Part shown: piece by piece, positions 2,849-60,060 of the stretch | Numbering within the stretch: position 1 is the stretch's first letter | Layout of the letters: each line of letters opens with the position of its first letter | Origin: Candidatus Dormiibacterota bacterium | GTDB taxonomy: Bacteria; Acidobacteriota; Polarisedimenticolia; Gp22-AA2 | Assembly: GCA_035635555.1 (NCBI GenBank) | Contig: DASQAT010000028.1 | Location: 71,885-135,884, forward strand | Length of the DNA: 64,000 nt | Direction: 5' to 3' | Made by a program: the position numbers and the translations under genes | Notes under the pieces: model-generated | Told to the model about the DNA's origin: nothing | The model's database searches: none | What the model saw: the letters and a program-made list of their open reading frames with translations, nothing else

Positions 2849-3143
2849 TCAGAGTGCTGAATCTGGACAGGCGTGTTCAGATCTCTTCCCAACCTCTAAC
2901 CCTCTGAGCCTCCAACCCTAACGGCAGCGAGTGCGCGGGTCGTCCCGATCCGCGTCGCCGCCCTGGACATTCGCGCCTTTTTGAACACGCCTATGCGTGT
3001 TCCAGGCGCGCACTCCAAAAGCCTTGTCCATCAAGCGGTTCACGCGATGAGTTACCGAATCGTGCCTGGCAGGGAGGTTGCTCTCTGGTGAAGCGCCGAT
3101 GGCTCTAGGCCTACGGCGGGGCACACGGTCTCGAGGGGTCAAC
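2849..3143. other. Intergenic stretch with inverted repeat
   Basis: These 295 bases between the CBS gene and the subtilase hold no convincing gene. The one clear element is a perfect 8-bp inverted repeat, GAACACGC at 2983-2990 and GCGTGTTC at 2995-3002, separated by CTAT. The same half-site GCGTGTTC also occurs at 2871-2878. This could be an operator for a dimeric regulator or a weak hairpin. No T-run follows, so it is not an intrinsic terminator. No good -35/-10 pair was found for the subtilase. Confidence 0.4.
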
Positions 3144-57244: not shown

Positions 57245-57556
57245 ATGGATTACCAGAGAGGCAAGAGGCAGGCTTGGCGCATCATCCGGCTGGGGGTCGG
57301 CTGGCTCCTGACGCTCATCGGGATGGCGCTCCTGGTCCTTCCCGGTCCCGGCATCCTGTTCCTCATCCCCGGTCTGACGCTTTTGAGCGCGGAGAGTCTC
57401 TGGGTCAGGAGGTTCCTGCGCCGGTTGCGCGACAGACGCCTCGTTCGTCGGGCCATCCGCGAGGCGGAGAGGGCCGGCATCAAGATTGACTTCGGTCCCG
57501 ACGACGACGGCCCGGGAGAGACCCCCCCGCCGGGCCCCACCCGGTCCCCCTCCTAG
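57245..57556 (+). CDS. PGPGW-family small membrane protein
   Basis: 103 residues. Two transmembrane helices flank the family signature MALLVLPGPGILFLIPGLTLLSAE (here PGPGI in place of PGPGW), followed by a basic amphipathic stretch (RRFLRRLRDRRLVRRAIREAE) and an acidic/Pro tail. The function of the family is unknown. It lies 19 bases after dapF and is the last gene of the hslVU operon. Its stop codon overlaps that of nth (CTAG). Confidence 0.82.
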   Translation: MDYQRGKRQAWRIIRLGVGWLLTLIGMALLVLPGPGILFLIPGLTLLSAESLWVRRFLRRLRDRRLVRRAIREAERAGIKIDFGPDDDGPGETPPPGPTRSPS

Positions 57557-58287
57557 GACAGCCGCCGGCTCCCGCCGGTCCGGACGGGGACGGTTCGCGG
57601 CCTCCGCGCCCCGCTGCTCTTTTTGGCCAGCAGCTTCGCTTCCAGGTGATTCGACGGGCAGTGCGGGCTCAACGGGCAGGTCCCGCAACGCGGCAGGCGG
57701 GCCTGGCAGACGTATCGCCCGTGCAGGATCGTGGCGATCGAGAAGAAGATCCATTCCTCGCGCGGGATGACGGCCACAAGGTCCCTTTCGATCTTCACCG
57801 GGTCGGTCTGCTTCGTCAGACCGAGTCGCCCCGCCACGCGGGCCATGTGCGTATCCACGACGATGCCCGAGGGGATCCCGTAGCCGGCGCCGAGAACGAC
57901 GTTCGCCGTCTTCCGTCCGACGCCGGGCAGGCGGACCATCTCCTCCATCGTGCGCGGCACTTCGCCGCCGTGCCGCTCGAGCAGCGCCCGGCAGCACGAC
58001 ACGATGGATCGGGCCTTGGCGCGGAAGAAGCCGGTCGAGCGGATGACCTTCTCGAGATCCGGAAGCGCGGCGCGCGCCAGCGCCCGGGCGTCGGGCCAGG
58101 CGCGGAACAGCGCCGGGGTGACCTGGTTGACGCGCTCGTCGGTGCACTGCGCCGACAGGATCGTCGCGATCAGGAGCTGCAGGGGAGAGGTATTGCGGAG
58201 CTCGACGCGCGCTTCCGGGCGGGCGCCATGCAGCGCCTCCAGGACAGCGGCGGCGCGCGCGCGGCGGGTCGTCTCGGCCCGGGTCAT
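57553..58287 (-). CDS. nth: Endonuclease III
   Basis: 244-residue DNA glycosylase/AP lyase of base excision repair that removes oxidised pyrimidines. It has the helix-hairpin-helix LPGVGRKTANVVL with the catalytic Lys, the catalytic Asp in VVDTHMARV, and the 4Fe-4S loop C-x6-C-x2-C-x5-C (CQARLPRCGTCPLSPHC). The front ILSAQCTDERVNQ is the usual substrate-binding segment. It is slightly longer than E. coli Nth because of a basic C-terminal extension (KKSSGARRPRTVPVRTGG) that may add DNA contacts. It is convergent with the PGPGW gene and shares its stop-codon bases. Confidence 0.95.
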   Translation of the reverse strand: MTRAETTRRARAAAVLEALHGARPEARVELRNTSPLQLLIATILSAQCTDERVNQVTPALFRAWPDARALARAALPDLEKVIRSTGFFRAKARSIVSCCRALLERHGGEVPRTMEEMVRLPGVGRKTANVVLGAGYGIPSGIVVDTHMARVAGRLGLTKQTDPVKIERDLVAVIPREEWIFFSIATILHGRYVCQARLPRCGTCPLSPHCPSNHLEAKLLAKKSSGARRPRTVPVRTGGSRRLS

Positions 58288-58572
58288 CAGACCGGATGCT
58301 ACTGGAGGCAGGACTGACCTGTCAAAAAGTCATGGTGTCGCCCAGGTGCGTCAAAAAGGCGGGCGCCGCGGGGGAGGGGCGGCCCGGGCGGGCAGGCGCG
58401 GGAACTTCGGAACCATGGCGCCGAAGCGACCGCCGGCTTGAAATCACGCCCGATCTGGAGTCAGGCCGGGTCCGACTGCGGCATCTGGCCCGCATCCCGG
58501 GACAGGCGGGGGCGCGACTCGACGTTGGCAGGGATGTTGCTAATCCGATCGCGTCAGGGAAAGGAGGCAGCC
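58288..58572. other. Intergenic space upstream of the sigma-4 protein
   Basis: 285 bases between nth and the sigma-like gene with no convincing gene. A 9-base direct repeat GTCAAAAAG occurs at 58321-58329 and 58350-58358. TTGGCA at 58525-58530 lacks a -10 at the right distance. In-frame extension of the downstream gene to 58438 looks non-coding (Arg/Trp/Ser-rich). Confidence 0.35.
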
Positions 58573-58926
58573 ATGTGGCGTCAATTACTTCCGCACGCAA
58601 CGAGCTACGATGACTTCATCTCCCCGAACGAGGATACCCGTCTCGAGGCCTTCATATCCGATCCGGACTCCTTCCGCCAGGAGCGCGACATCATGCGAGC
58701 CGAGGTCGACCGGATCCTGAACCGGGCCCTCCGGCAGCTCCCGGCACGCGAGCGCTACATACTGGAGAGACGGTTCGGGATGCGCGACGGCAGTGAGCTG
58801 ACGCTCGAGGCTGTATCGCGAATCCTGAAGCTCAGCAAGGAGCGGGTCCGACAGCTCGAGCGCGAGGCCCTGCTCAAGCTGCGTCTGTCCCTGGAAGGAA
58901 TGCGCAGCCAGCTCACGGGTGCCTGA
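58573..58926 (+). CDS. Standalone sigma70 region-4-like protein
   Basis: 117 residues matching only the end of a group 1/2 sigma factor. PNEDTRLEAFISDPDSF resembles region 3.2, then LPARERYILERRFGMRDGSE and the region 4.2 helix-turn-helix LTLEAVSRILKLSKERVRQL, which would read a -35 element. Regions 1 to 3.1, including the -10-binding and core-binding region 2, are absent. AAGGAGG lies 5 bases before the ATG and a strong terminator follows, so this is a complete single-gene unit and not a fragment at a break. It could be a split sigma, a co-regulator or an anti-activator. No partner region-2 protein is adjacent. Confidence 0.8.
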   Translation: MWRQLLPHATSYDDFISPNEDTRLEAFISDPDSFRQERDIMRAEVDRILNRALRQLPARERYILERRFGMRDGSELTLEAVSRILKLSKERVRQLEREALLKLRLSLEGMRSQLTGA

Positions 58927-58959
58927 AGTCACACTTTCGGAACGGAGTGCGTGGTGAAG

Positions 58960-58999
58960 CCGCCGCCCTGTCTTCCCCCCCCGGGCGGCGGTTTTTTTC
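58960..58999 (+). terminator. Rho-independent terminator after the sigma-4 gene
   Basis: CCGCCGCCC (58960-58968) pairs with GGGCGGCGG (58983-58991) across a 14-base C-rich loop, then TTTTTTT (58992-58998). It lies 33 bases past the stop codon. Confidence 0.9.
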
Positions 59000-59211: not shown

Positions 59212-60060
59212 ATGAGATGGAATCGCCTGGGGTCGGGGGCCGCTCTCGCCCTCCTGATCCTCGCCGGGACGGGCTGCGAGGGGACTCTCGATCGTCTGAA
59301 GGCGAACTACGCGGCGAGAGAGGGGAACGACTTCTACAAGGGGCAGGACTTCGATAAGGCTGTCCAGTGGTACCGCTACTCCCTCTACCTCAATCCCGAG
59401 CTGCCGATCGCGTATCACAACGCCGGGCTGGCCTACATGGCCCTGTACAAGCCCGGGTCGCACCATCCTAAAGATTTGTACTACTCGCAGCAGGCGATCG
59501 ATCACCTCGAGCGCTTCCTGGGCTTCGAGCCGAACGACGAGGACGCCAAGAACCAGCTCCTCACCGTGTTCCTGCAGGCGGAGCGGTACGACGATGCCGC
59601 CAAGTTCTTCGAGGCCGAGATCAAGGCACGCGGCAGCGATCCGGAGGTGGCCTCCCGCCTGGCCCAGGTCCTCGGGATGATCTACGCCAAGAAGGGGGAC
59701 TTCGATCTGTCGCTCGAGTGGTACAAGAAGCGCGCCGAGATCGAGAAGGACAATCCCGAGGCGCTCTATACGATCGGGGTCCTGTGCTGGGACAAGGTGT
59801 ACCACGCCGGGATCACCATGGATCTGGACAAGCGCAAGGAGCTCGTGAACATGGGCATGGACTACCTCCAGCGCGCCGCGGACATCCGCCAGGATTACTT
59901 CGAGGCGACGTCCTACATCAACCTCATGTTCCGCGAGAAGGCGAAGCTGGCCCAGCTGGGCGGCAACATGGAGGACTTCGCCAAGTACAACCAGGAAGCG
60001 GACAAGTTCATGAGGCTGTCGCTGGAGCAGCGCAAGAAGTCGATGGCGAAGAAAGGCTAG
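59212..60060 (+). CDS. TPR lipoprotein
   Basis: 282 residues. The lipoprotein signal peptide is SGAALALLILAGTGC, with acylation at the Cys in LAGTGC. The mature part is four or more TPRs (YAAREGNDFYKGQDFDKAVQWY, NPELPIAYHNAGLAYM, LAQVLGMIYAKKGDFDLSLEWY, NPEALYTIGVLCW), ending in a basic helix. It should sit on the inner face of the outer membrane or the outer face of the inner membrane and organise a complex. The ATG at 59212 follows GAGGGAA by 7 bases. It begins the run with tonB-exbB-exbD-exbD, so it may be an accessory of that energy-transducing complex (inference). Confidence 0.85.
   Translation: MRWNRLGSGAALALLILAGTGCEGTLDRLKANYAAREGNDFYKGQDFDKAVQWYRYSLYLNPELPIAYHNAGLAYMALYKPGSHHPKDLYYSQQAIDHLERFLGFEPNDEDAKNQLLTVFLQAERYDDAAKFFEAEIKARGSDPEVASRLAQVLGMIYAKKGDFDLSLEWYKKRAEIEKDNPEALYTIGVLCWDKVYHAGITMDLDKRKELVNMGMDYLQRAADIRQDYFEATSYINLMFREKAKLAQLGGNMEDFAKYNQEADKFMRLSLEQRKKSMAKKG

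Follow-up and report, generated by a model that had tools for sequence, protein, structure and literature searches.

A conserved stand-alone sigma region 3.2-4 protein behind a sigma54-type promoter in a class of acidobacteria

Sigma domain 4 outside a complete sigma factor has been described in several settings. Bacillus subtilis SigO is, like the protein reported here, a chromosomally encoded protein described as having sigma domain 4 and lacking domain 2, and it pairs with a co-encoded region-2 protein, RsoA (PMC8103513). Phage T4 gp33, similar in size at 112 residues, is described as a flap-binding mimic of sigma domain 4 that has no discernible sequence similarity to sigma factors (PMC2988020). 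Phage Sigma70_r4-only proteins, with examples of 94 and 136 amino acids in BFVD, likewise consist of a stand-alone domain 4. A sigma54 promoter on a sigma-family gene has its parallel in sigma54-controlled sigma genes such as Pseudomonas syringae hrpL, the product of which is, in the accounts drawn on here, a complete sigma.

The gene described here differs from each of these. It is likened to SigO by description; unlike sigO, it is monocistronic, its expression is apparently sigma54-dependent, and no partner of the RsoA kind was found. Unlike gp33, its product is a cellular and true sigma homologue with the -35-reading helix intact, and unlike the hrpL-type product it comprises region 3.2-4 only. 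A full-text literature search returned nothing describing such a gene. Its features in the window (the whole 64,000-nucleotide stretch of contig DASQAT010000028.1 that was analysed) are as follows.

58573..58926, plus strand: coding sequence of 117 amino acids, composed of an N-terminal cap, the sigma region 3.2 finger, region 4 and a C-terminal tail
58560..58567, plus strand: Shine-Dalgarno sequence AAAGGAGG, read from the sequence
58526..58541, plus strand: sigma54-type -24/-12 promoter TGGCAGGGATGTTGCT, matching 11 of 12 consensus positions and conserved at 32 of 35 loci
58956..58995, plus strand: intrinsic terminator, a 13-bp stem with a T run after it (-24.6 kcal/mol, z -3.98)
57553..58287, minus strand: divergent neighbour, an HhH-GPD base-excision repair protein (nth-like; Pfam), context only
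59212..60060, plus strand: downstream TPR protein (Pfam), past the terminator and context only

Reading-frame translation of the window places the ATG at 58573 and the end of the stop codon at 58926. A longer in-frame ORF from TTG 58438 was rejected and the start at 58573 retained, because nine relatives (L012, L013, L015, L017, L021, L023, L025, L026 and L031) have an in-frame stop 1-15 codons upstream of the same ATG and because a start at that TTG would precede the promoter at 58526-58541. The terminator was matched by none of 200 shuffles; a simple terminator scan, in which loops were limited to 3-8, missed its stem. An initial sequence-only reading of this DNA had proposed 117 residues with their own Shine-Dalgarno sequence and terminator, and AAAGGAGG and the 13-bp stem bear this out.

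The cap, short and conserved, comprises residues 1-10, the region 3.2 finger residues about 11-40 and region 4 residues about 41-105, with the -35-reading helix at about 88-104 and the tail after region 4. In the Pfam search Sigma70_r4 is the sole family over its cut-off in the protein (residues 52-104, 52.5 bits versus a cut-off of 24.1), and no region 2 or region 3 family appears among matches up to E = 1. The C-termini of RpoD, RpoS and SigA are matched in NCBIfam and PDB sequence searches from residues about 6-16 to 104-113; as these matches begin ahead of region 4, they show that the protein includes region 3.2. RpoD and two other complete sigmas of the organism (contigs C13, C55 and C46) align with it without gaps from S11 onward. 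By these alignments the protein is a sigma severed just ahead of the finger, with 10 new residues as an N-terminal cap. Aligned with both the homologues and the organism's own sigmas, the -35-reading helix proves group-1-like, as the sequence-only reading had also held for the protein.

In the predicted structure model region 4 is confident (block pLDDT 81-97 over residues 41-100), the PDB matches of the model are sigma/RNA polymerase entries, and it superposes on 1ku7, sigma domain 4 on -35 DNA, with an rmsd of 1.9 over 63 columns. Residues 1-27 have pLDDT below 50, so a role for the finger draws no structural support from the model. The protein qualifies as a sigma domain 4 by its Sigma70_r4 score and its fold match. 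It is not a sigma70-family member in the full sense, with regions 2 and 4 in one protein: it matches Sigma70_r4 only, and at all 35 loci the unit is stand-alone.

Homologues were sought in 60 relatives and by a profile search of 41 genomes of the class. Thirty-three of the 41 genomes carry stand-alone homologues, at 35 loci in all, scoring 147-194 bits versus 110.5 bits for the best full-length sigma in the class profile search, and the alignment shows all 35 to be 117-119 amino acids long with a common start and no internal gaps. The sequence-only reading had named full-length homologues, or a lack of conservation, as signs of a mere truncation; these searches gave the opposite picture. A close-relative scan of genome contigs yielded four acidobacterial loci, and those close relatives that bear a name are metagenome-assembled genomes of 'Acidobacteria gp22', of a class that we take to be Polarisedimenticolia. 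In an even draw of 396 genomes, which took in all 41 of the class and in which the best 11 candidates per genome were scored, the same 33 matched, and none of the 355 genomes from other classes of the phylum did so at E <= 1e-32. Eight class genomes are without the locus (G002, G017, G018, G019, G022, G027, G030 and G040). The completeness of G018, G030, G040 and G022 is 91-97%, which makes true losses of the gene likely in these; some of the other gene-less genomes are incomplete.

Within the 35-locus alignment the recognition helix is invariant at S88, E90-E96 and A99, with K or R at position 89. The invariant E90-R91-V92-R93-Q94 of this helix are presumably equivalent to residues 585-589 of E. 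coli sigma70. In the finger S11, D13 and D30 are invariant and R23/L24 nearly so. Three congeneric comparisons gave dN/dS values of 0.042, 0.057 and 0.054 for the whole protein and 0.029, 0.072 and 0.037 for residues 1-40 alone, which are constrained as strongly as the remainder. This pattern suggests that the DNA-reading part and the polymerase-internal part have both been kept. A degenerate or truncated sigma gene without function would account for the presence of only the C-terminal quarter of a sigma, but such an origin is scarcely credible given one start conserved class-wide, dN/dS of 0.04-0.06 and a conserved promoter, and the idea of a truncated or decaying gene was rejected on the conservation, the gap-free homologues and dN/dS. 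By these comparisons the gene is conserved and genuine, neither a fragment nor a remnant.

The gene order of the window is one neighbour set, common to 11 loci, and is unlike the rest of the class, which mostly has a MutL-like gene divergent upstream (a cluster of 20 loci, with the gene adjacent at all but one). The HslU and MutL neighbours were assigned by eye from their motifs, and we take these identities as presumptive. Downstream of the terminator, the TPR protein opens a TPR-TonB-ExbB-ExbD stretch. An operon partner was considered and rejected, as comparison of the class loci showed no neighbour conserved class-wide; for the same reason the sigma region 3.2-4 unit appears to act alone. 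The description of the locus as a complete single-gene unit encoding sigma region 3.2-4 only agrees with the Pfam search, the alignments and the conservation. Of the conservation and synteny that had been proposed as checks, the short frame proved conserved and no neighbour proved common to the whole class.

These results also bear on whether the protein is one half of a split sigma, with the remainder supplied by an unlinked region-2 protein. A finger joined to region 4 is the expected content of such a half, and SigO-RsoA, as described, provides a precedent (PMC8103513). The Pfam region-2 profile, however, found 21 places in the organism's own genome at E <= 0.001 and 22 at E <= 10, every one in a frame of at least 194 amino acids. 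All but three of the 22 also match the region-4 profile; in the places on C39 and C13 the C-terminal part is region-4-like or long, judged by eye only, and the place on C17 has an E of 0.16 in a 608-aa frame. No region-2-only partner was found in the genome with Pfam at E up to 10, a search that a very divergent RsoA-like protein could escape, and the split partner raised by the sequence-only reading did not appear among these places. With no class-wide conserved neighbour either, we consider a split sigma unlikely.

The promoter is the second conserved element of the locus. Its GG lies at 58527-58528 and its GC at 58539-58540. The 150 nt upstream of each of the 35 starts were scanned for TGGCACGNNNNTTGCW with GG and GC mandatory, and in 32 loci the best site matched 10-12 of 12 positions, with the GC 26-46 nt ahead of the start at 31 of these loci and 93 nt ahead of it at the remaining one. 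The relaxed pattern, picked after the sites had been viewed, occurs in 463 of 81,038 overlapping background segments (0.57%, true sites included). With a -24/-12 promoter at a fixed upstream place in 32 of 35 loci, expression appears to be sigma54-dependent. The three loci without the promoter are L071 (G039), L072 (G037) and L075 (G023). L071 and L072 are second copies in genomes that also have a promoter-bearing copy, and the L075 protein resembles that of L072; together the three seem to represent a second paralogue of the stand-alone unit.

The organism's own genome encodes RpoN as well as complete RpoD-like sigmas. Its 4.28 Mb contain seven matches to TGGCASGNNNNTTGCW, one of them at 58526-58541, against one match for a reversed-pattern control. 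The other six, named by eye, concern exported proteins, a subtilase-like and a TonB-dependent-receptor-like protein, a small ORF and a tRNA, and no clear sigma54 regulon emerged from them. Elsewhere in the window, at 3067-3082 on the plus strand, a perfect sigma54-type promoter, TGGCAGGGAGGTTGCT, lies ahead of what by eye is an exported subtilisin-like protease. Across the class, an rpoN match was obtained in 38 of the 41 genomes. G025 (99% complete) and G007 (63% complete) have gene and promoter yet no rpoN match, and seven of the eight genomes without the gene do have one, so that gene presence does not track rpoN; co-occurrence gave no signal across the 41 genomes, where rpoN is nearly universal.

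Upstream alignments additionally revealed paired dyads of the form YGYCA-N3-TGRCR. In the window these are as follows.

58320..58332, no strand assigned: candidate enhancer/operator dyad TGTCAAAAAGTCA, conserved in the window's family (upstream alignment)
58349..58361, no strand assigned: second candidate dyad CGTCAAAAAGGCG, matching 9 of 10 dyad positions (upstream alignment)

The dyads may resemble the binding sites of the activator NorR. The dyad at 58320..58332 shares bases with the -35-like TTGACA of the nth-like gene, which is transcribed divergently; throughout the window's family the dyads overlap this -35-like element, so that their owner is uncertain there. All nine loci of family f4 have a dyad starting 54-57 nt upstream of the -24 element, a spacing kept even where the promoter sits further from the start, and eight of the nine have a second dyad 18 nt ahead of the first; the divergent MutL-like start lies at a more variable distance, roughly estimated by script at about 190-760 nt. 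Of the loci with the promoter 28 of 32, and of those without it two of three, have a dyad matching 9 or more of 10 positions within 400 nt; the background is 0.295 per 400 nt, for a motif chosen after the alignments had been viewed. Neither the sigma54-type promoter with its conservation nor the candidate enhancer dyads had been noted in the sequence-only reading. In the window's family, two TTTTTGAC boxes also occur on the minus strand of the intergenic stretch beside the nth-like gene (58296-58361), and one of them serves as the -35-like element in what resembles a promoter of that gene. At L112 (G000:C44:35913-35928), two dyads of this form, matching 10 and 9 positions of 10, lie upstream of a sigma54-type promoter; the promoter precedes a 69-aa ORF and is possibly served by the same activator.

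A viral origin of the gene was rejected, since its viral relatives are no more than 49% identical to it, and this over a part of its length. In 26 viral loci inspected (of 80 kept), frames of 119-140 aa occur in four, one of which touches its locus end; these short viral proteins (L121, L122, L133 and L138) carry sigma region 4 with other N-termini. The sigma54 pattern was found in none of the 26 within 150 nt ahead of the first start codon. A plasmid origin was likewise rejected, with all plasmid matches below 60% identity; the one record inspected of 69, the best, is a 533-aa protein.

The identity of the gene, a conserved stand-alone sigma 3.2-4 unit behind a sigma54-type promoter, is well supported. 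As to its action, we tentatively favour, as a reading of the sequence evidence that falls somewhat short of probable, that the finger and domain 4 together serve as a trans-acting surrogate of sigma domain 4 on RNA polymerase. In this model an enhancer-binding activator of sigma54 would fire and the free sigma 3.2-4 protein would be made; it would dock at the usual place of domain 4, the beta-flap tip and RNA exit channel, and its intact recognition helix would read -35 DNA. The protein would then compete with or replace domain 4 of RpoD-type sigmas in trans, and initiation would shift at -35-dependent promoters, such that chosen promoters are activated or housekeeping ones damped. By analogy, gp33 is a likely model for this mode of action. 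The absence of region 2, the main core anchor, from a free sigma4 counts against the surrogate reading, and affinity for polymerase could therefore be low. Also against it are the low pLDDT of residues 1-27, the three loci that lack the promoter, the gene-bearing G025 and G007 in which rpoN gave no match, and the failure of the gene to track rpoN across the class.

The finger sits inside the polymerase in the holoenzyme. Action on RNA polymerase is favoured over plain DNA binding because the finger and the -35-reading helix are both conserved. A sigma54-induced DNA-binding transcription factor, in which the domain-4 helix-turn-helix is reused at operators without flap docking, would suit the invariant recognition helix and the small, monocistronic gene; Sigma70_r4-only phage proteins exist, and the phage sigma4-like families phrog_36 and phrog_248 are labelled transcriptional regulator/activator. 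The region 3.2 finger would be useless to such a factor, however, and it is equally conserved, which makes this reading improbable. Lower still is the probability that the protein is a pure decoy that occupies the flap, blocks housekeeping domain 4 and lessens core competition in the sigma54 response with its DNA-reading helix unused. Such a decoy is compatible with sigma54 control, and inhibitory proteins acting on the domain 4/flap region have been described, but it would have no need for an invariant E90-E96. A more specific form of the surrogate reading, which we regard as rather doubtful, is that a sigma54-induced finger and domain 4 cassette invades or replaces domain 4 of the housekeeping holoenzyme in trans, so that -35 use and promoter escape would both be altered with no need for another complete sigma; this would be a regulatory link of a new kind between the two sigma families. 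Analogies exist in the effect on initial transcription described for sigma4 when it occupies the flap and the exit channel (PMC7948647), and in gp33, described as binding the flap as a sigma4 mimic (PMC2988020).

If the surrogate proposal is true, sigma domain 4 would here work in trans as a conserved component of cells and not of a phage, and it would connect sigma54 regulation with sigma70-type transcription throughout an entire class of acidobacteria from soil and sediment. An old question would then become testable, namely whether domain 4 and the finger, freed from region 2, can control a holoenzyme.
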